From Pseudomonadales bacterium (lineage in GTDB: Bacteria; Pseudomonadota; Gammaproteobacteria; Pseudomonadales; Pseudohongiellaceae): a stretch of DNA of 64,000 nucleotides. The notes below the pieces were generated by a model. That model searched no databases. It saw only the letters and a list, made by a program, of their open reading frames with translations, and was not told the DNA's origin. The translations under genes were made by a program, and so were the position numbers. This document shows positions 14,717 through 46,998 of the stretch, in pieces; position 1 is the stretch's first letter, and every line of letters starts with the position of its first letter. The stretch covers positions 62,001 through 126,000 of the forward strand of contig JAJDYJ010000047.1 of assembly GCA_022822865.1 (NCBI GenBank), read 5' to 3'.

Positions 14717-15807
14717 CCGGCAACTTCGGCGGCGAGCCCGGCCAGCAGATCGGTTTGATATTCGTTCAACAGGGGCTGGATGACCGATTCCAGGCCGCCG
14801 TTCATGACCTCGGGCAAATTGTACAGGGTCAACTTGATGCGATGATCGGTCACGCGGCCCTGGGGGAAGTTGTAAGTGCGTATTTTTTCGGAGCGGTCGC
14901 CGCTGCCGACGAGCCGGCGGCGCGTGTCGGATTCTTCCTGCTGGCGATCTTCCCTGGCCGCCTCGAGCAGCCGGGCCTGCAATAGCGACATTGCCCGCGC
15001 CTTGTTCTTGTGCTGGGAACGCTCGTCCTGGCATTCCACGACGATTCCGGTCGGCAGATGGGTGAGGCGGATGGCGGAATCGGTCTTGTTGACGTGTTGT
15101 CCGCCGGCGCCGCTGGCGCGGAATGTGTCGATGCGCAGATCGTTCCGGTTCACTTCTATCTCGTCGATTTCTTCCGCTTCGGCCAGGACGGCCACGGTGC
15201 AGGCCGAAGTGTGGATGCGGCCCTGGGCTTCGGTTTCCGGCACGCGCTGCACGCGATGCGCGCCCGATTCGAACTTGAGCTTTTCGTATACGTTGCGGCC
15301 TGCGATGCGCAAGATGACTTCCTTGTACCCGCCGTGCTCACCGGGCCGCTCGCTGATCAGGGCCGCGCCCCATTGCTGCAATTCGGCATAGCGCTGGTAC
15401 ATGCGGCACAGATCGCCGGCGAACAGCGCCGCTTCGTCGCCGCCCGTGCCGGCGCGAATTTCCAGAAAGACGTTGCAGGCGTCTCTTTCGTCGCGCGGCA
15501 GCAAGAGAATTTGCAGATCCTGCTCAAGCCGGTCCAGCGCCCCGGACGACGCGGCTATTTCCTCCTCCGCCATGGCGCGGATATCGGGGTCGGCATCGCG
15601 CCGCATTTCCTCCGCCTCGCGCAAATCGCCGTCCACGGCCAGAAAGCGGCCGTAGGTCCGCACCACGCCTTCGAGTTCGGCGTATTCCTTCGACAATTCG
15701 CGGAACTGAGCCTGGTCGGCGATGACATCGGCATCGCTGAGCAGGCCTTCGAGTTCCTCGAAGCGTTCCCGCAAGCCGTCGAGTTTTTGGCGAATCGAAT
15801 CCTTCAT
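14713..15807 (-). CDS. prfA: Peptide chain release factor 1
   Basis: RF1, 364 residues, recognises UAA and UAG. The GGQ motif is in [20 protein letters not shown], and the codon-recognition tripeptide in [20 protein letters not shown] reads P-E-T rather than the P-A-T of E. coli, a variant common in other gammaproteobacteria. A long coiled-coil N-terminal domain precedes it. The gene overlaps both hemA and prmC by 4 bases. Confidence 0.98.
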
Positions 15808-33578: not shown

Positions 33579-33652
33579 TTTCGGTCGATGCTGCCAAGCC
33601 GGTTTCCTGTCTTCGCTAGTGTCCGCAGGACCGATAATGTAAGGTCAAAGCC

Positions 33653-33793
33653 ATGGCACCAGACATAGAAAGTTACGAGCGAATGCAGGAAACCATCGCC
33701 CTGTTGAGGATTCTCGCGCATGGGCAAGAACAGATTGAAGCGGGCAAAGCGCGGGACGCAGCGGATGTGATAGCGAGTCTCCGCGCACAGTAG
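33653..33793 (+). pseudogene. Small ORF resembling the C-terminal end of a Phd/YefM antitoxin
   Basis: A 46-codon ORF, MAPDIESYERMQETIALLRI onward, ending AGKARDAADVIASLRAQ. The pattern SYExMQETIALL followed by an IEAGK segment is that of the toxin-binding end of Phd/YefM-type antitoxins, while the N-terminal DNA-binding half is missing; the in-frame sequence upstream hits a stop 18 bases before the ATG. An AAGG is near the ATG, so expression is possible. No toxin gene is adjacent. It may be a relic of a lost toxin-antitoxin pair at the island edge. Confidence 0.4.
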
Positions 33794-33805: not shown

Positions 33806-34936
33806 TCACGATTTCCTGCGTTTCAGATCTTCTTCCAATGCTTCCAGAAATCCTTCTGGATACTTCAGTCTACCTTTACGCGCCCGATGTACGAATCCGG
33901 ACAGCGCACGCTCGGAGAGGTCTGGCCAAGTTTCCGTCGCAAACGCCGACAGGCGGCCTCGACGCCTTTCCACTGGATGCTCCGACACATTTGCCACCAT
34001 CCGTTTCCGTCCCATACACCATGCCGCGTTCGGCCAACTGGCTCCCTGGATAAACTCGCAATCGTCCTGGCTAACGTATTCTCCCGGGTCACCAAGTCGA
34101 TTTCCGATCCATTCCGCTATTGGAACGGATACCGCGTTGCCGACCAGACGCCAACGATTCCGGCCATCCCTTTCATTCCTTAACACGGACGTCCACCTTG
34201 CCGGAAAGCCCTGGAAACGTTCAATAGCCTCTATTGTTGGCGTGGCTACGCGACCGTTCGGCAAGAGTACTGCGGGAGGAGAAGGGATGCCCAAGCCGGA
34301 ACCGGCTTTGAGCGGAGGAACGGCATCCGCTGTCAATCCATGTCCTGTCCGGCCTTCGGTCCAGAAGAATCCGATTGGCCTGGCCAAATCCAGCGAAGGC
34401 CAGTTCCTTTTTGGCGCATCGTCTGCCAACAGCACGTTTCGGGGGTCGCCATCAAGGCTGGCAACGATGAAAACTCTTCTGCGCCGTTGCGGAAGACCGA
34501 AAGCGCGGCTGTCGACAACTCGCGAAGCCCACCGATAACCCAGTCTTTCAAGATTCGAAGCAATATGTTCCATTGCCGCACCACGCCCCAAGTGCAACAT
34601 GAAATAGACGTTCTCAATCACCACCCACGGTGTTCGGCGTACTTCGAGCAGCCGAAAAAGAGCATGCACCACTCGCGACTTGTCGCCGTCAATACCTTGC
34701 TTCAGTCCCGCCATCGACAAATTCTGGCAAGGAAATCCGGCTGTTACGATTTCCGTCTCTTCCGGCAGGGCAGCGAGCTTGACCGCGTCGGCATCGACCT
34801 TCACACTCCCAAACCGATGCCGGATCACTTGCAAGGCTTCCGGATCTTTTTCACTCATCAAAAGGGTTCGGTGGCCTGACCGTTCGAATCCCAGTTCGAA
34901 ACCGCCAATGCCAGCATACAATCCCGACACCATCAT
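33806..34936 (-). CDS. DNA (cytosine-5-)-methyltransferase
   Basis: A 376-residue C5 methyltransferase. Motif I GLYAGIGGFELGFERSG, motif IV with catalytic Cys (TAGFPCQNLS), motif VI (VIENV), motif VIII (GLPQRRRRVFIV), and motifs IX-X (RLVGNAVSVPIAEWIGNR) are present. The target-recognition region between VIII and IX is fairly short. An extra C-terminal stretch of about 100 residues after motif X is unusual and holds a basic KRRKS end. No cognate endonuclease is next to it; a divergent N6-adenine methyltransferase starts 70 bases away, so it may be solitary or part of a mixed system. Confidence 0.92.
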   Translation of the reverse strand: MMVSGLYAGIGGFELGFERSGHRTLLMSEKDPEALQVIRHRFGSVKVDADAVKLAALPEETEIVTAGFPCQNLSMAGLKQGIDGDKSRVVHALFRLLEVRRTPWVVIENVYFMLHLGRGAAMEHIASNLERLGYRWASRVVDSRAFGLPQRRRRVFIVASLDGDPRNVLLADDAPKRNWPSLDLARPIGFFWTEGRTGHGLTADAVPPLKAGSGLGIPSPPAVLLPNGRVATPTIEAIERFQGFPARWTSVLRNERDGRNRWRLVGNAVSVPIAEWIGNRLGDPGEYVSQDDCEFIQGASWPNAAWCMGRKRMVANVSEHPVERRRGRLSAFATETWPDLSERALSGFVHRARKGRLKYPEGFLEALEEDLKRRKS

Positions 34937-35006
34937 CGATCAAAACTCCACATCTGTCGTCGGGACATGCGACCGTTCCTCATCAGTTGGCCCGCTGGCG
35001 TCACCA

Positions 35007-36374
35007 ATGCCGCGTTCCGCCCCCAAAGCACACGCCCCGGAATCCATTGAAATCCTGCATGACCTATGCGGTGTCTACACAAAACCGGCATTGGTCAAAC
35101 GCCTCCTTGACCGGGTTGGCTGGACACACGAAGCCGACCTTTCCAGCGCCCGCCTGCTTGAGCCGGGCGCCGGTGATGGCGAATTTCTGGTCGAAGCCGT
35201 GAGACGCCTCGTAGCCTCTTTCGTTCGATGCGGCGTTCACCTTGACATCAAGTCCCTTCGCGACCGCGTATTAGCCTACGAATTGGCGCCGGGAGAAGCA
35301 AACAAGGCCAGAACGCGCATTATCGCCGAGATGAAGGCGTTAGGTATGCACCACTCCACTGCAATCGCTTGCGCGAGGGCATGGGTCAGGACTGAGGACT
35401 TTCTTCTCGCCGAACTGCCCCATCCGAATTTCACCCACATTGTAGGCAACCCGCCCTATATCCGCTGGTCCAAGCTCCCCAAGGCCATGTCGAAGGCTTA
35501 CGCTGAGAAGCTGCCAAGTACGATAGCCCGCGGCGACTTGTACCTGCCGTTCCTCCACCGATCCTTCGAACACTTGGCCAATGACGGGCGCTGCGCTTTC
35601 ATCTGCTCAGATCGTTGGCGCTATACGGTCTATGCAAAGGACTTCCGTACAAAGTGGTTGGCATCCATGCATATAGAAACCGAGCCCGCGGGCGAGGCCA
35701 AGGAAGCTTTCGACCGCGATGTATATGTACATCCAGAGATTCTCACCGCCTCCCGCCGCAAATCGCTAAAGCCCCAGAAAGCAAGGCGGAAAAGAGGCGG
35801 CAAGACGCTCGCCGAACTCGGCTGCACGATCCGCGTCGGCCCTGCCCTGGGCGTAACGCCCGCTTTCGTGCTGGAACCGCACGAACACGATGTCGAACCT
35901 CAACTGTTACATCCGTGGGTCGATACGTCGGAAGTTCTAGCGGGTCGAGTTGACTGGTCCGGCCGTCGTGTTATCTCACCCTATGACAACACTGGCGATC
36001 TCATTGATCTGGAAAATCATCCGTTGTTCGCGGCACACATTCGCAGATTCGAGGCGCCTCTTCGCGCCCGCTACATCGTTCGCAATGGAGCCGCTTGGTA
36101 TCGCACGATCGATAAGGTTAAAGCCATCGACTGGTCGCCGCCAAAATTGCTAATTCCAGAGGTCGCCAAAATCCCCAGAGTCGCAATTGATCGAAGTGGA
36201 GCGATACCCTCCCACGGTCTCTATTGCATTTTCTCCCACCAAACTGACATCTTGGACATTTATGACCGCCTCCGGGACGGCAAGCTGGCGAAGGCTCTTG
36301 CCCCGATCGCGCCTAGGGTCAAGGGACGATACATGAGATGCTATCGCAGATTTCTAGCAATGATGACCATCTAG
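35007..36374 (+). CDS. N6-adenine DNA methyltransferase, TaqI-like class
   Basis: A 455-residue methyltransferase. Motif I is LLEPGAGDGEFLVEA and motif IV is NPPYIRW, the catalytic N6-adenine motif in gamma-class order. The C-terminal half after about residue 300 fits a target-recognition domain, ending with LAPIAPRVKGRYMRCYRRFL. The reading frame continues upstream into the divergent dcm-like gene, but that part is low-complexity shadow sequence; the ATG at 35007 gives a start just before the conserved region, with ATG 34908 as an overlapping alternative. It converges on the 206-residue gene 22 bases past its stop. No nuclease domain is seen in the protein. Confidence 0.88.
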   Translation: MPRSAPKAHAPESIEILHDLCGVYTKPALVKRLLDRVGWTHEADLSSARLLEPGAGDGEFLVEAVRRLVASFVRCGVHLDIKSLRDRVLAYELAPGEANKARTRIIAEMKALGMHHSTAIACARAWVRTEDFLLAELPHPNFTHIVGNPPYIRWSKLPKAMSKAYAEKLPSTIARGDLYLPFLHRSFEHLANDGRCAFICSDRWRYTVYAKDFRTKWLASMHIETEPAGEAKEAFDRDVYVHPEILTASRRKSLKPQKARRKRGGKTLAELGCTIRVGPALGVTPAFVLEPHEHDVEPQLLHPWVDTSEVLAGRVDWSGRRVISPYDNTGDLIDLENHPLFAAHIRRFEAPLRARYIVRNGAAWYRTIDKVKAIDWSPPKLLIPEVAKIPRVAIDRSGAIPSHGLYCIFSHQTDILDIYDRLRDGKLAKALAPIAPRVKGRYMRCYRRFLAMMTI

Positions 36375-36396: not shown

Positions 36397-37017
36397 TCAA
36401 TTCTTCAGCATCTCTTTTGTCATCTCCAGATATGTTTTCCGCTTGTTTGGTTGACCCTTGAACGCTTTATCAAGAACATCGTCAATTCCGCGCGGGTATC
36501 CATGCATTGCAACGGCCATAGCCAAAAATCTTGTAATCGGGTCATTGCTAGGAATCGGGAACGCCGGATAAGTCGTAGGTAGCTGGGTTACCGCTCCGCT
36601 CAGTGTAACCTGCCGTTGACCAAGCAACTCGTTAAGTTGTACATGATCATATCCATGGGCCGTAACGTCACGTTGCGATCCTGGTTCAAACCGAAACGCA
36701 AACGGTGAACCCCGCGGCGACAGGACAACCAAATCAAAGGACAAGGCTGCTTGGCCTGCCCGACCAACCCAAGGTGCAAAGAAGGCCGCGAACACACGAT
36801 TCTGCTTGCATGGCATGGGGATCAGCTTCATGGGGTTGCCATTTTTGGCATACGGTCGGAACGGAATGGTAACCGCACTTTCAGCAATTCCCTGTTGCGT
36901 CGCAATATCAACGCCTATTACACGCGCCCGCGCCTTGACACGAGGCGACTCGTTCGCCCAATGCTGCAATCCAAGCCTTGCGTATGCCAAAAGCAATTCA
37001 TAATTCAAAGCACTCAT
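36397..37017 (-). CDS. Unrecognised protein in the GHKL-receiver cassette
   Basis: A 206-residue soluble protein I do not recognise. It starts MSALNYELLLAYARLGLQHW and has a central segment (ALSFDLVVLSPRGSPFAFRF, then HGYDHVQLNE) likely to form beta strands, followed by a Pro/Thr-rich linker and a basic helical C terminus (KGQPNKRKTYLEMTKEMLKN). No clear PD-(D/E)xK, HNH, GIY-YIG or Walker motif is seen. It starts 3 bases after the stop of the receiver gene, so the two are translated together, and convergence with the N6-methyltransferase gene bounds the operon. It may be the effector or an adaptor of the cassette, or a divergent nuclease. Confidence 0.8.
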   Translation of the reverse strand: MSALNYELLLAYARLGLQHWANESPRVKARARVIGVDIATQQGIAESAVTIPFRPYAKNGNPMKLIPMPCKQNRVFAAFFAPWVGRAGQAALSFDLVVLSPRGSPFAFRFEPGSQRDVTAHGYDHVQLNELLGQRQVTLSGAVTQLPTTYPAFPIPSNDPITRFLAMAVAMHGYPRGIDDVLDKAFKGQPNKRKTYLEMTKEMLKN

Positions 37018-37020
37018 GGG

Positions 37021-38256
37021 TCACGTCGCACTTCCCAAGATTCGGCTACGAGGCGAGTAAAGATAGTCGTCTACATACGCGATATAGCGCCTTGTCCATG
37101 ACCCCTCGATTTCCGACTCGAACTCCTGTGGAGAGTCCTCCCCGTCGTTCACACACACGAAACGTGACACGTCCTCACAGAAAACGGCGTCCGGCCAGTC
37201 GCCTTTCGCATTGAAAAATTTTTCGCTAAGAGCATCGTCCGACTTGAGCTTAGGCCACCAAAAACATGGACCGGGTACCCACATTTCGTGATCAAAGCGC
37301 GCTGTGATCAGATGATCCTCGAACAGCCGAGCATCGAGACCAAAGGGAGACTCGTCACTTCCTAATACGGCATTCCAGCAATCAAGTCTGTGCGCGTCAT
37401 TTCCCAACAGGAACGGCATCTGTGACAGCAGATGCGGCAAGTCAATCAATACATCTTGTGTTCCCAACACATCCCGTCGCAGCCAACGATCAACCTCATA
37501 AGCCGATATTCGGTGAATGGCTTTCCTTGCCGATTCATTTCCGTTTGAGGCTAATTTCTTCAATTGTTTGATGTCAGCCGGAGGCACCGCCCTACTTGTA
37601 TCAAGAAACACTTCAAAAGAAGTTTCCCGTTCACTTTTTTCAGCTGACGACAAATGCGACTTTGCTCGCAGCGAAAGATAATCGTCTGCTTCTGAAGGAA
37701 AATTAAGTGCTTCCCACACTGGACTTTCGAAGTTTTCCTCAACAAAAACGTTTTGCTTTCTTCGTCGTGCCGCTGCATCCTCAATGCGCGGCCAATACCA
37801 AGGCGCAAAATCGCCCTCCGACTTTCCGACCCACAGACGGTGGTTAGTCAAATGCCTAGTGTTCAGCGCTAGGTCGGACAGTGATTGATAGTCACCAAAC
37901 AAATATCTCAGGTCAAAATCTACATGCGGATTCTTGTTTAGCGAAATGATGTAAGGCGTGTCGGCAAACGCTCGCAGATACCCAATTATTGTCTCCGCCG
38001 TCATCCTGGCGCCATCTAACTGCAAATCGGTGAGATTGTTGTCGACAATTAGGACATCGAACTCATCAAACGAATCCGCCGAATCATCGACTTGACTTAA
38101 GTTGCCGTCGAGGATCGTGGACACGGTACTAAGAAAATCGGTCAGAGCATCCTTCAATTTCGCGCCAGCGAGAGACTTAACAATACCCCGACTAATGATT
38201 TTTTGTTCCGTTTTCTCGGCTTGCTCCGGCTTGTCGTCACAAATCAATATCTTCAT
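37021..38256 (-). CDS. Receiver-domain protein with unknown C-terminal region
   Basis: A 411-residue protein from MKILICDDKPEQAEK. An ATG five codons upstream exists, but the one at 38256 overlaps the GHKL gene stop (ATGA) and has AGGA at good spacing. The first 120 residues are a response-regulator receiver with all key residues: acidic pocket Asp7-Asp8, phospho-acceptor Asp72 (LIVDNN), Ser105 and Lys108 (ISLNKN). No HTH, GGDEF or other standard output domain follows; the 290-residue remainder has Trp-rich patches (FAPWYWPRIED, VPGPCFWWPK) and is unrecognised. Its direct partner is the upstream histidine-kinase-like protein. Confidence 0.85.
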   Translation of the reverse strand: MKILICDDKPEQAEKTEQKIISRGIVKSLAGAKLKDALTDFLSTVSTILDGNLSQVDDSADSFDEFDVLIVDNNLTDLQLDGARMTAETIIGYLRAFADTPYIISLNKNPHVDFDLRYLFGDYQSLSDLALNTRHLTNHRLWVGKSEGDFAPWYWPRIEDAAARRRKQNVFVEENFESPVWEALNFPSEADDYLSLRAKSHLSSAEKSERETSFEVFLDTSRAVPPADIKQLKKLASNGNESARKAIHRISAYEVDRWLRRDVLGTQDVLIDLPHLLSQMPFLLGNDAHRLDCWNAVLGSDESPFGLDARLFEDHLITARFDHEMWVPGPCFWWPKLKSDDALSEKFFNAKGDWPDAVFCEDVSRFVCVNDGEDSPQEFESEIEGSWTRRYIAYVDDYLYSPRSRILGSAT

Positions 38257-40610
38257 CTTAATCCTTTCCATGAAAGCTCAATTGCTGTTGAGAATCCTTC
38301 CGGCGGGCTAACGAAGGAAACGTCTGCGTTTCTGCTGTGTGCAATCATTCGTACGATCGCCAATCCGAGACCTTGTCCTCCAATGGCGATTGATAAATTC
38401 TGCGACCTTATCGAAGTCCGCCGCTCAAACGCTTCGAACAGTATCCCGGCATCTTCCAAGGGCATTTTCAAACCGACACCCGTGTCGCTTACCCGAAGAT
38501 ACTGCCGCCGGTCGTTGCTGGGTGAACCATCGAATCGGACAATTCGTGTTTTGGAATCCAGCATCGCGTTCCAGGCATTGAAAAGCAAATTCTGGATAAT
38601 CGCGCTCCATTCGACGAATGAGCCCACTGGAAAGAGCAAATCGCGTGGGATCGACTTCTTGTAGTCGAAAATCACGCCTGACAATCTCGGCTTAAGCGCC
38701 CTGACCACTTGGCCCACAGCGGATTCCACTCCCAGCCGCTTGTCCGCGCGGCGCTCTTCCGGATTAGCAAGCGGGGAAAACAATCGTCGGAACGTGTCGA
38801 ATCGAATCTGATACTCCTGCATCGTCATCACCGCTTTCTCCATTTTGTCCGATGGATGCGACTTGGCGAGTTCACGTAACAATCCGTCCAACTCCTTTAA
38901 GAGCGCGGCATCATTAGAAAGTTCGTGATTCATTGCCAACGCTGCCATCCCTGCTGTAGCCAGCGGCGCGAGAAGCGTTGCACGGCTATCGATTGCCTTG
39001 GACTCTTTCTCTACCGCAGTGCGCGCCGCTACGACTTTCCGCTTAACGTCCTGATATGCGGCTTTTGGCATCTCAAATTTGTAGGTATTGAGAGTCGACA
39101 CGGCATTATCTAAGACTCTAGACGGTCGCTCCTTCCCCCGTTGCTGTTGCGCAACGTCGTCCGATATGGCCCGATATCTGTTCGCGTACAAATCGAGTCC
39201 AAACCGGACCAAGTCTCGAAGTTGTTTGAATGATGTGTTTGGCGCCAGCCGGTCCCGCCCAGGTTGAATCTGCAGACAGTCACCTCGGACCGGCAGCTTG
39301 GCCACCACCTTGGCCTCAAGATTGGTATCTACATCCACCGCACCAAAGATGCGACCCGGATTTGGTAGATCAAGCAGATAACGCGTCCCGGTTCGCAACC
39401 GCTCAGGTAGTAACTCAGAAGTGATCAAGCGTCGGCCCTGATCGACGCCCAAGTCTAGCCAATCCTGTCCCCCTAGATCTCGATTCCCATAGTACGGTAG
39501 TCGAAAACCGCCATCGTAGACCAATACGCCTCCATGCATTCTTAAGTATTCGCGCATTTCCCCTACGGACAGTCCACCCGGTTGCCGTCCTTCCGTCTTA
39601 AAAACGAATATCGTGAAGCGCGCCTTATCCAGCGCCGGCACCATGACGCCATCGTCTTTCTGGGTAGCTTTATCGCCATCCTTGGCTCCGTCACTCGATG
39701 CTTCGGACGAATCGCCCTCATCATCCGCTACGGCCGACCGCCGAACTACAGGAAACCTGACTGTCTCGCGGTAGGTTCTCGCGTCACCAACACCTTCAGG
39801 GTAATTCGGCACAAACTCAACCATCACCGTGGCCTCGCTCCCGCCCGAACGTTGCCGCCCATCCTCTATCACACCGGAGATTCGTGCCTTCCAGTTATTG
39901 AACAGGGCATCGTGCAGTTTGTCGAAATGCTCCCTCGCACTCTCAATTTCTGACGCGCGCAGATCTATGTGGAAATCCAGGGCAGTCTTACCTTTGGTCT
40001 TACCCCTCCCATCCCGGAACGGCGAGCGGAGCATCCAAACATCTTTGCCTAAGGCTTCGAGCGCCGAGCCATCCCATGTCGTTTTTAGTCCAGTTAGCGT
40101 TATCTTTGTACCAATGGGCGAACTATCCGGATAGGTCGATTGCTCACGGAAGTTGTCCCACTCCACTTCAACGGTTTGCAAATCCTCCCCACTACGGATG
40201 TTCCTCCAGTCCACATAAGCGTAGACCATCTGTTCCGGATTTGCTTCGCAGTTGCTCTCAAGCTCCATCTCATCTGCCAAGAACTGGACCGACAATCGAC
40301 CGAGACCTTTTGAGCCAGTCATTGCCCTGTGGAGATTTCGCGATGCACGCGCATCTACTTTGTGTGTAGTTCCGATTCGCATCCAATAGCTGATAAATTC
40401 GTCTTCCGAAATCCCGTGCCCGTTGTCGGTGATCACGATACGATCTTTCTCGAACTCGATACGGCATGTATGAGCATCGGCGTCATAGGAGTTTTTCACA
40501 AGCTCGGCTAGCGCAATGTGGGCTTGACCAATGAGCCGTTCGCCCAGTTCACGCAATAGCGCAGCGTCTACAGTGAAGTGCTCCTTATTGCGTTGCTTCT
40601 TGTCAGGCAT
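38253..40610 (-). CDS. Double-GHKL ATPase: MORC/HSP90-like plus histidine-kinase-like
   Basis: A 785-residue protein with two ATP-binding modules. Near the N terminus ALAELVKNSYDADA (Glu36, Asn40), ITDNGHGI and TGSKGLGRLS are the N, G1 and G2 boxes of the HSP90/MutL/MORC type. The C-terminal third is kinase-like: a possible phospho-accepting His near residue 562 (LAMNHELSND), an N box IIQNLLFNAWNAM near 670-683, SDTGVGL and GGQGLGLA. In between are an S5-like region and a charged acidic linker near residues 290-320. The downstream receiver protein starts in a 4-base overlap. Together they look like a two-component pair sensing something through the first ATPase. MORC-type ATPases in prokaryotic restriction loci are known; the function of this one is inferred. 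Start chosen at ATG 40610 over GTG 40631. Confidence 0.88.
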   Translation of the reverse strand: MPDKKQRNKEHFTVDAALLRELGERLIGQAHIALAELVKNSYDADAHTCRIEFEKDRIVITDNGHGISEDEFISYWMRIGTTHKVDARASRNLHRAMTGSKGLGRLSVQFLADEMELESNCEANPEQMVYAYVDWRNIRSGEDLQTVEVEWDNFREQSTYPDSSPIGTKITLTGLKTTWDGSALEALGKDVWMLRSPFRDGRGKTKGKTALDFHIDLRASEIESAREHFDKLHDALFNNWKARISGVIEDGRQRSGGSEATVMVEFVPNYPEGVGDARTYRETVRFPVVRRSAVADDEGDSSEASSDGAKDGDKATQKDDGVMVPALDKARFTIFVFKTEGRQPGGLSVGEMREYLRMHGGVLVYDGGFRLPYYGNRDLGGQDWLDLGVDQGRRLITSELLPERLRTGTRYLLDLPNPGRIFGAVDVDTNLEAKVVAKLPVRGDCLQIQPGRDRLAPNTSFKQLRDLVRFGLDLYANRYRAISDDVAQQQRGKERPSRVLDNAVSTLNTYKFEMPKAAYQDVKRKVVAARTAVEKESKAIDSRATLLAPLATAGMAALAMNHELSNDAALLKELDGLLRELAKSHPSDKMEKAVMTMQEYQIRFDTFRRLFSPLANPEERRADKRLGVESAVGQVVRALKPRLSGVIFDYKKSIPRDLLFPVGSFVEWSAIIQNLLFNAWNAMLDSKTRIVRFDGSPSNDRRQYLRVSDTGVGLKMPLEDAGILFEAFERRTSIRSQNLSIAIGGQGLGLAIVRMIAHSRNADVSFVSPPEGFSTAIELSWKGLR

Positions 40611-40704
40611 CTGGCTCAGCCCCGTAGGCACCTAGCGAACAACAGCCAGGAACGAATGTACTTACCCGAAAGGTCGGCTTTGCCAGTCTTTTCATCAGTC
40701 TTGC

Positions 40705-43700
40705 CTACTTGCTCAGAACGTCTTCAAGCACTTGCTTAAGGCTGTCACCATTCTCTCCCAGTCGATAAACCCCTTCGTCATGGTTTGCAGGCATTTCCTT
40801 GCTTACGGACAGAATGTATGAATGCAGCCGCAAGTCCGATCTGTTTAGTTTTGGCTCGATTTCCTTGATCGACTTGTGCAATCCGATTTTCGCCTGATTG
40901 TCGCCATGCACCAGTCCTTTCGGGTCGAGGAAGATCATATGGGTCTCGTCTTGTCCGATCAGCCAGCAGATGAAGTCCGGATAGTACGCATCCTTGCCAT
41001 AGAATCCGGTTCCGGATCGGGAGGCGTTGCGCATCAGGTATAGCTCGAAATCGGTGATTGGAGGCTTGCCGACCAAGGCCATCAGTTCCTCGACCGTCTG
41101 CTTTTCGCCCTTATTCAGCGGCAATGGCTGGACCGTTACCGGTGATTTGTCATGCTGATAAATCACCGGAATATACGCATGTCGCGAAGGCACCATAATC
41201 TCCAGGCCAAGAGATGCCACCTTGCGCTCTTCCATCTTCTCGCATAGTTCGCCGATATCGTCTACCAGAGCCCGCCAATCCTCTTGCCGGCTCTCGCTCA
41301 CTTTCAGAAATTCGGTTTCAACGGCAATGGTATATTCCTTGATCAAGCTGCCATCGTCCGACTGAAGCTCCCCGACCTCCTTGTTTTCCTTCTCCCAGTT
41401 CCATACACCGTTTTTCCAGTTCGCTTCGATCAGCTTGGAGGCCAAATCGATAAAGCGGTTTTCCTGTGTTCTGACATCCGCCATGGACCCCAATCGAACC
41501 GCCGTGGCAGGCGCGTAAACTTGATACCAGTCGTTGTTTCCTATCAGTTGATCCACGAAACCGGCATCCAACTCCAGATTGTGCATTTTCCGCTGCTGTT
41601 TGAAGGCCAGCAGCGAACGATAAATCCTTGGCTTGTCGAACAGGCCGACCACGGCGTCGAATCGATACGGCTGCTTGGCGTGATCTTCCAAGGTTTCATC
41701 GATTTCGCCGACAGTCTGCATCTTCGAATATAGATCCAGTTTGGCGCTTCGCTGGTAATTCGCCAAGCTCAACTTCACTCTGTCCCCATCGGTCTCGAAC
41801 GCCGCACCGGATTTGGTTCTCAGCATGGGAAGCCTGACATTATCGGGAAGCTGAGTCTTTACCGGAATCTTGAAAAGCTCCATGTCTGGCTGAATCTGTT
41901 CCTTGCCCAGCATCTCCTTGAATTTCTTCATGTAATCGGCGCGCAGCCCGAAGATGTTCAAGGTTTCGAGCAGTCCGAGTTCTTCGCTGTGCTCCGGCGG
42001 CGGCGCGTCGAGTTGCCTGTGGCGTTTCAAACTCAAGCCGAGACCTTTCAGTCGAACTCCGCGGCCGAACATCTGAATGATCTGCGGTCCCTGGCTGACC
42101 CCGACGTTCAGTAGCGTCATCGTGCTGACGCGCCAACTGTTCCACCCTGCGATGAATTTTCTGGCCCCGATGAGAATGTTCACAGGCGAATCCGGCGCAT
42201 CCACCTTGCTAAAAAGCCTGTCGGCAAATCCGGCATCCCTATGCGTGTACGCATCGATGCCCGCATCGCCCTCCTTCAACAGTTTGTGGACTTCGGCCGG
42301 AGCACCCACATTGATGACGCCGAAAACCTCGCCGTTCACGCTGTTTTTCAGGTGCAGTTCTCCCCGCCCTTGCGTCAGATACACGACATGCAAGCTGCCG
42401 CTGCCGTGAAACAGGTGATCGCAAAGGTCGTCATACAACGCCGCCGGGGGAAGTGCTTGCGAATTCAGCCAGTTCAAGCGCTCGGCAAACCAGTCGCTGG
42501 TGGCGGTATCCGACACCAATCCCGCCTTGCCGGCAAGCACGGATTCGATTTCCGCTTCCACTTCATCGCGGCTTTCCAGCACCCAATGCAGGAATCGAAT
42601 GATCTCGATAATGTCGGTTCGGCCTTTCACCGACAGTTTTCCCGTCGCCGTGGTGACGGTATGCCCGAGCATGACCCAGAGCGGCCGCGTGACGTTGTAG
42701 TCCGCCCAGTACCGCCCAAGTTGCCGGTATACCTTCATTTGCTGATAAAAGACGAGCATCGCTCCTACCTGGTAGGCGCGCTGGTTCGCGTCCTGCAATC
42801 CGGTCGCCAGATTGGCGACGCTATGGTCCTTGCCGTAGCCGTCGCGATAGAAATGGCGGTAGGAGTAATCGAACAGCAGGCACTTGCTGTAATGGCTCAG
42901 CAATTCTTCCTTCTCGACAATCTGATTGAAAGTGGCGGAATACTCCAAGGTGAAACCTTCGGCAGCGAGCCTGCCCCGCCGCTGCCGCGTAACCGCCTCG
43001 TCGCCGGCCTTGCCCAGGTGGCCTTCATCGACGAGCACCAGATTTCGCGTGCCAAGCTCGCGCACATCTACTACCACATCCTTGGTTTGATCGCCGAGTT
43101 TGTGAATGTCGATGATCTGCACCGGTTGCGTAGCCGCGAGTCCCGCGCCGGCGTCTTTCTGGAACAGTCTGGCGGCGATTCGGCTTTGGCGCAGTTCGCG
43201 CAAATGTTGCGCTGACATGTCCGCATCGGGCGTCACCAGGTAAATGTTGTCGATGGCGCGGCCGAATTGTTTGGCGTAGTGCCGATACTGCAGTAGGTGC
43301 GCGTGCATGATCAGCGTCTTGCCCGAACCCGTCGCGCTCTGAAACGCGAGCGTGGAAAGATCGCCGGTTTCGTAATCGGGCAGATGCCGGATGCTGCCGT
43401 CGGCACTGGCACTTTTGAAAAGGTTCAGCTTGCGGCACAGCTCGTCCGCATCCTCGAACCAGCTATGCAGGTAGAATTCCGCGAGCAGCAAGGCCGCATA
43501 CTGGTGTGGTTTCCAGTTGCGGGAATGTCCCGCGCCGATTTTCAGGCGCTCGCTGTGGGCGCGGATGTTAACACCGTATCGCCGCAAGGTGTCCGGGTTT
43601 ATCTTGACGTGCGCGCGTTCGGCTATGCGATTGAGTACCGGGTGCCATGAGTCGCCCGGGGTTTCGTCGCGCAATTCCTTGAATTCCGCGAGCAAATCGC

Positions 43701-43800
43701 GAGTGGTCTCAAAACCGAAGCAAGTGCACACGTATCGGTTCAGCGCCAGTTGGCTTTCCAGCACCAGGGCCGACGGTTTTTTCACCTTCCTACGCCTCAT
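40705..43800 (-). CDS. Type III restriction enzyme Res-like helicase-nuclease
   Basis: A 1031-residue SF2 translocase and nuclease. Walker A is ATGSGKT at residues 156-162, Walker B DEGH at 258-261, motif III SAT at 288-290, and motif VI lies in QMFGRGVRLKG. The C-terminal region has a PD-(D/E)xK-type nuclease core: Pro941-Asp942 in YYPDFICWL and Asp959-Pro-Lys961 in IFLDPKGL. Type III Res acts only in complex with Mod. The gene begins 3 bases after the mod stop, the usual order. The protein is cytoplasmic. Its 94-base gap before the GHKL gene means the two cassettes could be co-transcribed. Confidence 0.9.
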   Translation of the reverse strand: MRRRKVKKPSALVLESQLALNRYVCTCFGFETTRDLLAEFKELRDETPGDSWHPVLNRIAERAHVKINPDTLRRYGVNIRAHSERLKIGAGHSRNWKPHQYAALLLAEFYLHSWFEDADELCRKLNLFKSASADGSIRHLPDYETGDLSTLAFQSATGSGKTLIMHAHLLQYRHYAKQFGRAIDNIYLVTPDADMSAQHLRELRQSRIAARLFQKDAGAGLAATQPVQIIDIHKLGDQTKDVVVDVRELGTRNLVLVDEGHLGKAGDEAVTRQRRGRLAAEGFTLEYSATFNQIVEKEELLSHYSKCLLFDYSYRHFYRDGYGKDHSVANLATGLQDANQRAYQVGAMLVFYQQMKVYRQLGRYWADYNVTRPLWVMLGHTVTTATGKLSVKGRTDIIEIIRFLHWVLESRDEVEAEIESVLAGKAGLVSDTATSDWFAERLNWLNSQALPPAALYDDLCDHLFHGSGSLHVVYLTQGRGELHLKNSVNGEVFGVINVGAPAEVHKLLKEGDAGIDAYTHRDAGFADRLFSKVDAPDSPVNILIGARKFIAGWNSWRVSTMTLLNVGVSQGPQIIQMFGRGVRLKGLGLSLKRHRQLDAPPPEHSEELGLLETLNIFGLRADYMKKFKEMLGKEQIQPDMELFKIPVKTQLPDNVRLPMLRTKSGAAFETDGDRVKLSLANYQRSAKLDLYSKMQTVGEIDETLEDHAKQPYRFDAVVGLFDKPRIYRSLLAFKQQRKMHNLELDAGFVDQLIGNNDWYQVYAPATAVRLGSMADVRTQENRFIDLASKLIEANWKNGVWNWEKENKEVGELQSDDGSLIKEYTIAVETEFLKVSESRQEDWRALVDDIGELCEKMEERKVASLGLEIMVPSRHAYIPVIYQHDKSPVTVQPLPLNKGEKQTVEELMALVGKPPITDFELYLMRNASRSGTGFYGKDAYYPDFICWLIGQDETHMIFLDPKGLVHGDNQAKIGLHKSIKEIEPKLNRSDLRLHSYILSVSKEMPANHDEGVYRLGENGDSLKQVLEDVLSK

Positions 43801-43803
43801 GGA

Positions 43804-46800
43804 TCAACCGGCTCCTGCATCGAACATCTTTTCGCGAAACACCAATTCCAGAGCGCTCGTCGCCCACGCGCCACTCGGCGGAGCGAGGCGGCCCAACTCG
43901 TTGTCGCCGTTGACGTACACCAGACCGGCGTTAAATTCCTTCCGGACAGGTTCACCATGAGCCTTGAACCAGGCGTTCAGGGCATCGTTATCGGTGAATT
44001 CGATATCCCGCCAAAGAATGAGACAGCGCGTCTCATTTGCGTCAATTCCCGTAATCGCCACTACGTCTTCAATGACTCGGCGGGCGTGAACGCGCAGGCC
44101 GATCAGATAATTGAAGGTTTCCGGCAAATCGACCGCCACGTCGCGGCGGGCGCCGTCGCGAACCACGGAGAGCGTATAGCCGCGGGGGCGGGCAAAATCG
44201 CCGCCGCATAAGGTCGCGCTGTTCGCGGTTTCGTTGGTCAACTGATAGCGCAAGGCATAATCTTCGGCCAGTTCGGGGTGGGCCGCGAACAGTTCGCCGA
44301 CGCCTTCAAGCGGTTTGACTTCCAGGCTGTCGAGCGCGTCTTCGTGGCTTTCCAGCCTGATGTACTTGAAAAATTGCGACTGGCCTTTGCGACTGACCGG
44401 CTTGCCGTCCTTCCAGTCGTGGGAATAGGCAACCTTCTTGATTCGCGGCAGCAACACCGTCTCGAAATGCTCCCCCATCTCAACCATGATGTATTTTCGA
44501 GAACCGCCATCTTCACGGTTCAAGTTCATTACCGCATGGGCGGTAGTGCCAGAGCCGGCGAAGAAATCAAGAATGTGGGCAGAATGTTGGCGCGCCCCTG
44601 CGACATAAATGGAATCGGCCACTGCATGAATTGATTTTGGATATGGAAAGACTGACTTGCCGAACATTTTCTTAAGGAGCGCCGTTCCATGATCGACAGC
44701 CGAATGCTTGGCATCAAACCAGCAAGATGTGGAAACCACTCCATCGTCGTGAGGCCTTCTTTTGTAGTAAACAAAATCCCGGCCTGTTCTGTCCTTGCGC
44801 ACCATCAACTCATTGAGCGAACGCATTACAGTCTCCCAACCCCAGCGCCAAGTTTTCTCCAATCCCTGATCGTTGTCGGGAAAGACGGCATGTTCTCCTT
44901 CTAGAGGTGCTTCCTTGGTTATCCATTCTTGCTGATCATAATCCCAAGTCATGCTTGGAACCCTGAGACTGCCGTTCCCAACAAAAATCGGGTAGTAAAG
45001 CTGCCGCCGATCAGACCGGTCGGAATTAGAACCTTCTCGGCGAAGATTTCTCCATTCAAATGGCCCCGTTTCATCAGTTTCCGAAAAACGCTCCATCTGA
45101 CGGTCGGAAGGAGGTAATCGGCCTATCGAGGAACTCGAACTATTTCCAGCGAAGATGAGGTACTCATGGGAGACTGAATAGCCGCTTTTCGTAGGGCGTC
45201 CCGATGGATTCGACCTAACCAGGATGACCCCGAGAATAGGCTCGGTGAAACTGTTGGAAATCAGGAAATTCAATTCCCGGAATTGCTCATCGTCTATGGC
45301 AGCGACTAAAACTCCCTCATTCGCCATCAGATGTTTGCTTACGTTAACTCTGTTCTCTAGCAGGGAAATCCAAGCTGAAGATTTATACCCATTTTTGTAC
45401 AAGATCGGAGACGCGTCAGTATTGTAAGGAGGATCTATGTATATGCACTGTATGCGACCACTATACTGAGGTTGCAATAGATTCAGCGCCTGAAAGTTTT
45501 CGCCGTACACCAGTAAGCCATCCAAGTCGTCCTCAATCGAAGCGTCTTCCGTACCATCTGCTAACGCGGTTAGCAGACGATCGATAAAATCCCGGTTGAA
45601 GTGTCTCGTATCAACAATCATATTGGGATTGTCACGCAGAATGTCCGCAGGCGGAGGCGTTGTGAAGCCCGCGATTTCGTCCAGCGCGTACAATTCCTCC
45701 CATTCGTCGACCTGGGCTGCGTTGGCGGCGATCTCGGCGTGAAGGGACTCTGGCACCTTGTCCAAGGTGATGCCGTAATTGGTTTCCAGCACGAATTTCT
45801 TTTTCAGCCAGATTGATTTGTGGAAGTCTTCCAGTTGCGCCAGGAAATCAATGATCTTGCCGCCAATCCCGCGCACCGCGCTCATCAGGACCAAGACGCG
45901 GCTCAGGCGGGCCTGATCGTCGGAGTTATCGGGGTCGAAGTCGTCCAGCGCCATGATCTCGGTTTTCAGGTACAGGTCGAGTTCCCTGCGCAGGAAACCC
46001 CGCAGATCCTTGTGAATGAAATAGTCGAAACTGTTCTTTGCCGTGTAAACGGCGAGATGCCTGGCGAGAACGGATCGCTCGGGGTCGCTTTCCGTCGGCG
46101 CAGGCAGCGCCAGCCTTTGCGCCCAGACTGGATCGAATTTTGTCGCCAGTTCCAGAATCGACGCTTGCATTTCGTCGTTCAGCCGAGCCTGGACATTGTT
46201 TTTCCCGGGCAGGGCCGCGGCTTCGGCGTCCGTCAAGGGCCTGTGGTCAAACGACACCACGAGTTGTTCGCCGTCCGCGGAGAGTCGCGCCCGCCCTTCG
46301 CGTGTCGTCAAGACAAAGCGCCGGTCCTTGCCGTTCTGCGCCTTGATGTTATCCTTTTCAGCGTCGGCGGCGGCGATTTCAAATCGCACCTTCGCATTTG
46401 CCGGCCAATTCTCGTGGCCGAAGACGTAGGAGGAAAAGTTCTCCGTGGTCTTGATGTAATACTGATCGGCGTTGGCCCAGTGCAGCTTGACCTCTTCGCC
46501 GTTGTAGGGAATGAGATAACTGGTGTCGCCATTGGCTTTCATGCGCCGCAGGGACATGAAATCGCCGCCGTCGTAATAGCGGCTGAAGAATTGATACAGA
46601 TGGTTGTATATGTGGCCTTCGGTAGCCGCGCCATCGCGGGCGGTTTTCAGTTCGGCGCGCTTGTTCCTGACCCACGGGATTTCTTCAACGGTTTCGCGGT
46701 CCATGCCGTCGCGGTTGTATGAAACGAGCTTCTTTTCGAGTTCGGACTCTAGCTCCTCGACGCGATCCGCCGTCAACCTCCATAGATTTTTCCTTGCCTG

Positions 46801-46998
46801 GGGAAGCAGGTCGCCGCTCAGGAACGCTTCGATTTCGGCGGCCTTGAGGTTCATGACGCGGTAGAGGCCGAAATCGAGATCGCCCTTGTCGAGCTGGAAC
46901 AACTCGCGCAGCAGATCCATCAAAAGTTCGAATTTCTCGCCGACCGCTCCACTGGGGCGGTCGCTCTGCGGGCTCGGCTCCGCGGATTCCTCAGTCAT
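43804..46998 (-). CDS. Type III restriction system methyltransferase Mod-like
   Basis: A 1064-residue methyltransferase. Catalytic motif IV is DPPY at residues 522-525 (IYIDPPYNTD) and the SAM motif I FFAGSGTTAHAV follows about 300 residues later, the beta-class order of type III Mod. About 500 residues precede motif IV, far longer than phage-type Mod proteins (about 650 in total), and contain an acidic helical region (LESELEKKLVSYNRD) and a beta-rich part. The region between the two motifs is the target-recognition domain. It would make N6-methyladenine on one strand and recruit Res. The gene is the first of the minus-strand run; a 169-base gap separates it from the RND transporter. Confidence 0.92.
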   Translation of the reverse strand: MTEESAEPSPQSDRPSGAVGEKFELLMDLLRELFQLDKGDLDFGLYRVMNLKAAEIEAFLSGDLLPQARKNLWRLTADRVEELESELEKKLVSYNRDGMDRETVEEIPWVRNKRAELKTARDGAATEGHIYNHLYQFFSRYYDGGDFMSLRRMKANGDTSYLIPYNGEEVKLHWANADQYYIKTTENFSSYVFGHENWPANAKVRFEIAAADAEKDNIKAQNGKDRRFVLTTREGRARLSADGEQLVVSFDHRPLTDAEAAALPGKNNVQARLNDEMQASILELATKFDPVWAQRLALPAPTESDPERSVLARHLAVYTAKNSFDYFIHKDLRGFLRRELDLYLKTEIMALDDFDPDNSDDQARLSRVLVLMSAVRGIGGKIIDFLAQLEDFHKSIWLKKKFVLETNYGITLDKVPESLHAEIAANAAQVDEWEELYALDEIAGFTTPPPADILRDNPNMIVDTRHFNRDFIDRLLTALADGTEDASIEDDLDGLLVYGENFQALNLLQPQYSGRIQCIYIDPPYNTDASPILYKNGYKSSAWISLLENRVNVSKHLMANEGVLVAAIDDEQFRELNFLISNSFTEPILGVILVRSNPSGRPTKSGYSVSHEYLIFAGNSSSSSIGRLPPSDRQMERFSETDETGPFEWRNLRREGSNSDRSDRRQLYYPIFVGNGSLRVPSMTWDYDQQEWITKEAPLEGEHAVFPDNDQGLEKTWRWGWETVMRSLNELMVRKDRTGRDFVYYKRRPHDDGVVSTSCWFDAKHSAVDHGTALLKKMFGKSVFPYPKSIHAVADSIYVAGARQHSAHILDFFAGSGTTAHAVMNLNREDGGSRKYIMVEMGEHFETVLLPRIKKVAYSHDWKDGKPVSRKGQSQFFKYIRLESHEDALDSLEVKPLEGVGELFAAHPELAEDYALRYQLTNETANSATLCGGDFARPRGYTLSVVRDGARRDVAVDLPETFNYLIGLRVHARRVIEDVVAITGIDANETRCLILWRDIEFTDNDALNAWFKAHGEPVRKEFNAGLVYVNGDNELGRLAPPSGAWATSALELVFREKMFDAGAG

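Follow-up and report, generated by a model that had tools for sequence, protein, structure and literature searches.

Organization of the cassette

We analysed a 64,000-nucleotide stretch of DNA from a Pseudomonadales bacterium of the family Pseudohongiellaceae (GenBank assembly GCA_022822865.1, contig JAJDYJ010000047.1, positions 62,001 to 126,000 of the forward strand), hereafter the window, and describe in it a three-gene cassette that looks like a switch for attack on foreign DNA. The three open reading frames (ORFs) lie on the minus strand and overlap or abut one another, as an earlier sequence-only reading of this DNA had noted. They encode a double-GHKL, histidine-kinase-like ATPase of 792 aa (38253..40631), a receiver protein of 416 aa (37021..38271), whose receiver fold spans about residues 4-173 and is followed by an output region, and a third protein of 206 aa (36397..37017). 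The kinase and receiver genes share a 19-nt overlap, and a gap of 3 nt separates the receiver gene from the 206-aa gene. The upstream end of the cassette had been placed at 40610, which is indeed an in-frame Met (785 aa from this ATG) but lies inside the kinase ORF; counted from the upstream GTG at 40631, the candidate phosphoacceptor previously numbered His562 becomes His569 (codon 38925..38927, minus strand). Likewise, with the receiver starting at MERIKMK, the phosphoacceptor Asp72 becomes Asp77 (codon 38041..38043, minus strand).

The kinase

Pfam recognises both ATPase domains that had been read from the sequence, HATPase_c_3 at residues 38-150 (E 9e-21) and HATPase_c at residues 678-781 (E 2e-16), and the protein has homologues in other loci. 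The profile of its N-terminus matches MutL/PMS2, HtpG and MORC3 (E 8e-5 to 0.009). A kinase profile (A3) was built from seven relatives; against solved histidine kinases, the kinase profile aligned over the phosphoacceptor helix together with the catalytic domain (FixL chimeras, E 7e-13; also CpxA and HK853), and His569 fell onto the His of the FixL 'HEL' box. Conservation points the same way: with duplicate contigs included, Glu43, Asn47, Asp69 and Gly71 of the N-terminal GHKL domain are invariant in all 83 aligned kinase ORFs, His569 is retained in 71 of 76, and the residue directly after it is a Glu or Asp in 70 of the 76. We read the protein as a predicted MORC/MutL-like GHKL ATPase fused to an intact histidine-kinase core.

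Two copies were omitted from the kinase alignment: L009, with a broken kinase and receiver, and L006, with its kinase in two ORFs. Both kinases are split over several frames, that of L006 (1452-3806, Nitrospinota) alone and that of L009 (9331-13700, an Ornithinimicrobium plasmid) together with its receiver, reflecting either decay or sequencing error. We rejected an identity as a BbrUII/HgiDII restriction enzyme, as NCBIfam NF050001 scores 87.8 bits against a cut-off of 550 and covers residues 19-196 only. Elsewhere, the window's own genome carries one more kinase of this kind (L143; G000:C32, 14500-22500; 1111-5398); it differs from the first, is 842 aa long and has a receiver-like gene of 588 aa after it.

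The receiver and the third protein

Pfam, PADLOC, PHROGs and NCBIfam held no family match for either the receiver or the 206-aa protein, in keeping with the earlier description of a receiver output of no known type and an unrecognised partner; by sequence, their best solved relatives reached only E 0.67 and 0.81, respectively. The receiver model, predicted from 14 sequences with a predicted local distance difference test score (pLDDT) of 86.0, has the alternating receiver fold. Its top rows in VIA-align are response regulators, matched over residues 4-173 (Z 7-8.1, best 8.1), and response regulators also make up most of the first 50 Foldseek rows (best E 1.4e-3, none below 1e-3). Every one of the 15 aligned receivers, from which the broken L009 was omitted, has Asp12, Asp13 and Asp77, and the model places Asp77 at the end of strand 3. 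The positions of the usual receiver Thr/Ser and Lys are altered: Asn112 never varies, and where the window's branch has Lys113 most other receivers have, by eye, Gln or Glu. The product of 37021-38271 is, on this model, a receiver-fold protein. Judged by conservation, the kinase/receiver pair appears intact, and since the motif residues of both proteins are invariant or nearly so across relatives, the cassette is more than a chance arrangement. The output region has invariant residues of its own (Asp277, Pro279, His280, Glu366, Arg395 and Tyr405); no DNA-binding or other Pfam domain was found in it, and the fold comparison was confined to residues 4-173.

The third protein is modelled (pLDDT 87.7) as helices followed by an antiparallel sheet. 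Arg109, Glu111, His121, His125, Gln127 and Pro151 are invariant in 15 of 15 third proteins, a set that omits L030, where a transposase-like ORF follows the receiver. These residues lie mainly on or between two strands (residues 105-111 and 125-129) and look like a candidate active or binding site. Several identities were tried and set aside. No solved fold, nuclease or other, stood out as similar: the best Foldseek row had E 0.34 (none below 0.001), and the best VIA row was LegA15 (Z 4.3); E2- and XopD-like rows had Z of at most 3.5 and were given no weight. A barnase-like layout, an idea from strand order alone, was not supported. We also considered that the protein might be a piece split from Response_reg_2 (416 + 206 is close to 590 aa); hhalign found nothing for this, nor did it between the third protein and the receiver.

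A conserved unit in a methyltransferase setting

Profile searches of the collected loci gave 16 distinct loci with a receiver. The third gene lies beside it in 15 of them, the exception being L030, which holds the transposase-like ORF in the third-gene place and only a fragment of the kinase. A search of 398 whole genomes from the phylum found the receiver in four and the third protein in the same four, so the recurrence on which the sequence-only reading had hung its defence idea is found. Over 13 of the 16 loci, pairwise identities co-vary between kinase and receiver (r 0.95), kinase and third protein (0.92), and kinase and C5 methyltransferase (0.81), and each correlation was equalled in at most one of 10,000 permutations (p 0.0001). 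This comparison omits L006, for its kinase in two ORFs, and L030, for its kinase fragment.

The restriction-modification (R-M) setting recognised at the outset recurs as well: a C5 methyltransferase lies beside the cassette in 15 of the 16 loci, an Eco57I-type methyltransferase is present in seven, and Vsr in eight, with none seen in the other eight, the window included. The contig of L006 ends within its C5 gene. The C5 enzymes divide into two types that share 22-27% identity; the Eco57I-type enzyme was seen alongside one type and not alongside the other, while the kinases of the two groups are still homologous. Inspection of the ORF lists revealed no separate restriction gene beside most copies. 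On the Ornithinimicrobium plasmid (L009), a PaeR7I-family restriction enzyme is annotated at 14889-15551, between the cassette and the Eco57I-type methyltransferase; no other copy was seen with an annotated type II enzyme next to it.

The phage collection that we searched had no match, and the plasmid collection had two matching records, which a second plasmid search returned again. The class-wide search found the window's own genome only (1 of 369), receiver relatives were present in 2 of 58 genomes of a neighbour set, own genome included, and a scan of genome contigs with a single protein gave two loci.

The surrounding island

In the window, two methyltransferase genes lie downstream of the cassette, both outside 36397-40610. 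The nearer one encodes an Eco57I-type N6-adenine methyltransferase (34908..36374, plus strand, probable ATG start at 34908; PF07669, E 8e-14) and is convergent with the cassette; beyond it lies the gene of the C5 cytosine DNA methyltransferase, the conserved neighbour (33806..34936, minus strand, 376 aa; PF00145, E 3e-43). The two genes are divergent with a 29-bp overlap of their starts (34908-34936), so the promoter of each must fall inside the coding sequence of the other. An identical overlap occurs in L006, L010 and L032; L007 does not have it.

Upstream of the kinase are type III res (40705..43800; PADLOC REase_III, 446 bits) and mod (43804..46998; MTase_III, 641 bits), both on the minus strand, giving the order res, kinase, receiver, 206-aa gene. 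PADLOC upholds the type III assignment, and the cassette does lie directly downstream of mod-res, as the sequence-only reading had stated. The tie between the two did not hold up: mod-res adjoins the cassette in only 2 of the 16 loci, namely in the window and in one congeneric genome, and is therefore rejected as its partner and treated as a neighbour outside the conserved unit.

The whole block has a guanine-plus-cytosine content of 0.49-0.59, against 0.60-0.64 in its flanks. The flanking NHL-repeat and RND genes are 13.9 kb apart here (window 33.3-47.2 kb) versus about 85 bp in the congeneric genome G801 (locus L122), which retains just the first 17 codons of a YciI-like ORF. This difference represents either an insertion in the window or a deletion in G801. 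Right outside the left edge of the island lies a 20-nt inverted repeat (33601-33694; 85%, arms 54 nt apart).

Wider relatives in viral contigs and chromosomes

A scan of viral contigs, which are predictions made by the collection, with the kinase profile alone gave 66 loci. Three of these had no usable next gene and five next genes were duplicates, leaving 58 distinct next genes. A receiver motif is present in 45 of the 58; it turned up in 63 of 2900 shuffles and, among other ORFs on these contigs, in 8 of 281. The patterns for this motif and for the slot classes below were set after the sequences had been seen, and the rates are descriptive. Several of the 13 genes that the pattern missed resemble receivers by eye. 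Chromosomes carry such kinases too: at E 1e-15, a match was present in 14 of 150 sampled genomes. From 16 listed places we picked six kinases that had not been seen before (open frames of 678-855 aa), and a receiver-like gene follows the kinase at five of them, four by pattern and one by eye.

What occupies the slot after the receiver varies. Among the 58 viral loci it holds the window's own type in 6, an 'HxQ' protein in 13, an HNH protein in 9, a metallo-beta-lactamase (MBL)-fold protein in 3, and none or another gene in 27; Pfam agreed with the assigned class in five of five HNH cases and the one MBL case tested. The HNH version, with a kinase and a short receiver of 209-225 aa, is found in L045, L051, L054, L055, L057, L076, L093, L095 and L096, and the MBL-fold version in L044, L046 and L061. 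Receiver length varies with the class of the third gene: receivers measure 209-228 aa beside HNH or MBL genes, 339-390 aa beside HxQ genes, and mostly 414-613 aa where no third gene was recognised. For this reason the place of the output seems to alternate between the receiver itself and a separate protein.

Two loci connect these sets to the methyltransferases of the window. In the viral contig L071, window-like C5 (E 4e-120) and Eco57I-type (E 2e-85) methyltransferases surround a different kinase, a receiver and an HxQ third gene, and a bacterial chromosome (L139) carries an L071-type set (kinase E 2e-212, receiver 1e-20, third gene 5e-8) beside a window-like Eco57I-type enzyme (E 1e-140). 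This would fit a swap of the effector set next to a retained methyltransferase, and we take it as the strongest sign that methyltransferases and kinase modules of this kind work together. The cassette is one of a large and so far little studied group that occurs both in bacteria and in phage-like contigs.

A proposed phosphorelay switch and its alternatives

We propose that the cassette is a methylation-licensed, phosphorelay-switched effector module, a reading that we judge about equally likely to be right or wrong. The methyltransferases would mark the cell's own DNA, and the MORC/MutL-like ATPase would close on unmarked DNA or another infection signal. Closure would activate the C-terminal histidine kinase, His569 would be phosphorylated, and the phosphate would move on to the receiver's Asp77. 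Once phosphorylated, the receiver would damage DNA or another target, via its output region and together with the 206-aa protein in the effector slot. The proposal draws on which genes are present, on the preserved catalytic residues and phosphoacceptors, on the joint occurrence and parallel divergence of the genes, and on the nucleases in the equivalent slot of relatives; the signal sensed, the phosphate transfer, the third protein's role as effector and its target are what we infer.

Several observations weigh against this proposal. Pfam and PHROGs found no nuclease motif or fold in the third protein or in the receiver output, nor did Foldseek and VIA for the third protein, the fold comparison of the receiver being confined to the residues given above. 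Motifs in register suggest that the third protein may be distantly related to the HxQ proteins, but the hhalign scores for this kinship are weak (E 0.0035 and 0.1 in two runs). No recognised third-gene type accompanies 27 of the 58 wider pairs. The parallel divergence of the genes could partly come from shared ancestry without functional need. Finally, a C5 methyltransferase within 6 kb went undetected at 39 of the 58 wider viral kinase loci, which means that methylation cannot license every branch and that others must have a different trigger.

These methyltransferase-poor loci would suit an abortive-infection phosphorelay that is blind to methylation, in which the kinase senses infection, receiver and third protein act as a toxin, and the methyltransferases are passengers of the island. 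HNH or MBL-fold partners would also be apt as toxic effectors, but in the window's branch the C5 methyltransferase stands beside 15 of the 16 copies and has diverged in parallel with the kinase, and we regard this explanation as unlikely. The two-component architecture itself would accommodate a cytoplasmic regulator of methyltransferase or restriction gene expression. This role is raised as speculation in the Discussion of PMC8011034, which in 2021 predicted a two-component-like pair, HEF_HK (PF19191)/Response_reg_2 (PF19192), beside R-M genes. However, Pfam finds no known DNA-binding output domain, in a region that the fold comparison barely covered, and the HNH and MBL partners seen in relatives speak rather for an effector; we give the regulator a small chance.

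A MutL-like aid to the repair of C5-methylated sites, working with Vsr, would explain why Vsr accompanies half of the 16 loci and why the kinase N-terminus resembles MutL. The other eight loci, the window among them, show no Vsr, and repair would have no need of a conserved kinase/receiver pair, which makes this role improbable. A service to type III mod-res is very improbable: the kinase does lie directly downstream of res, with 73 nt from the res stop to the kinase GTG and no sigma-70-like site found between them, but both copies beside mod-res belong to one genus.

The methylation-licensed effector module may be part of something larger. Tentatively, and with somewhat less than an even chance of being right, we suggest that MORC-type ATPase kinases, with their cognate receivers, make up a large superfamily of mobile defence switches. 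In these, recognition of DNA would be coupled to an exchangeable effector by a His-Asp phosphorelay rather than by direct contact, and the effector would be an HNH protein, an MBL-fold protein, an 'HxQ' protein (the 206-aa protein perhaps among them) or a long receiver alone. HEF_HK/Response_reg_2 would be one branch, and the window's branch would serve a C5 (plus adenine) methylation system as its restriction half. If this is true, bacteria fire restriction through two-component signalling, and recognition is split from cleavage, so that effectors can be swapped. MORC-type ATPases would gain a defined output in bacteria, the 2021 prediction would become directly testable, and a candidate effector family would be named that is absent from every library searched here (e.g. 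Pfam, PADLOC, PHROGs).

Comparison with known systems

Phage defence by two-component signalling has a precedent in Detocs, which combines a histidine kinase that has a TPR sensor with a receiver, another receiver that acts as a buffer, and an effector that cleaves ATP. Unlike in Detocs, TPR families are absent among the Pfam matches of the window kinase up to E 0.1 and 10. In open PubMed Central, we found no experimental study of a kinase/receiver pair like that of the cassette; subscription papers and preprints lay beyond this search.

GHKL ATPases have been connected to restriction and defence in other ways. The paraMORC ATPases of R-M loci, described in 2008, join GHKL and S5 to nuclease, TIR or other C-terminal extensions (PMC2292703). 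They share with the window kinase a MORC/MutL-type N-terminal GHKL domain with catalytic motifs, a restriction locus and a C5 methyltransferase; Vsr occurs in their loci as in the cassette's family, and the word 'receiver' occurs zero times in the text of that paper. In the GHKL-Shedu protein VcSduA, mutants show that a GHKL ATPase controls a nuclease in phage defence (PMC12137116). As portrayed there, VcSduA is one protein with a PD-(D/E)xK nuclease and no phosphorelay, whereas the window holds a predicted kinase/receiver pair. A figure legend of the 2026 DefensePredictor paper (PMC13092281) lists HATPase and REC for one of its predicted defence systems, the same combination as in the window; this case is a prediction given in the legend without gene names, from which identity with the cassette's family cannot be told.

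The closest likeness is to HEF_HK/Response_reg_2, names that turned up in two papers of open PubMed Central. Both kinases combine HATPase_c_3 with HATPase_c and have a conserved His followed by an acidic residue, both are followed by a receiver-like gene with a conserved Asp, both have a C5 methyltransferase neighbour, and Vsr is among the neighbours of that pair and of the cassette's family. The window kinase is homologous to HEF_HK-type kinases from end to end (hhalign 99.9%, E 4e-35). The earlier claim that the phosphorelay pair matches no named system therefore needs qualifying: a related pair had been predicted in 2021, but the Pfam models of that pair miss the cassette. PF19191 does not match the window kinase up to E 10, and PF19192 matches neither the window receiver up to E 10 nor anything across the whole genome, whereas the same model matched 7 of 299 genomes. 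The receivers barely align, hhalign covering only 78 N-terminal columns at a probability of 3% (E 0.014). In the open frames seen, the window kinase has 792 aa versus about 1000 in HEF_HK, and the window receiver 416 aa versus at least 542 in Response_reg_2; the separate third gene is an addition relative to that pair. Since Pfam models, receiver, lengths and third gene all differ, we rejected an assignment to HEF_HK/Response_reg_2 and regard the cassette as its kin rather than a member. The general kind has been published, and the cassette appears as a separate variant of it, set apart by its receiver output and its third gene.

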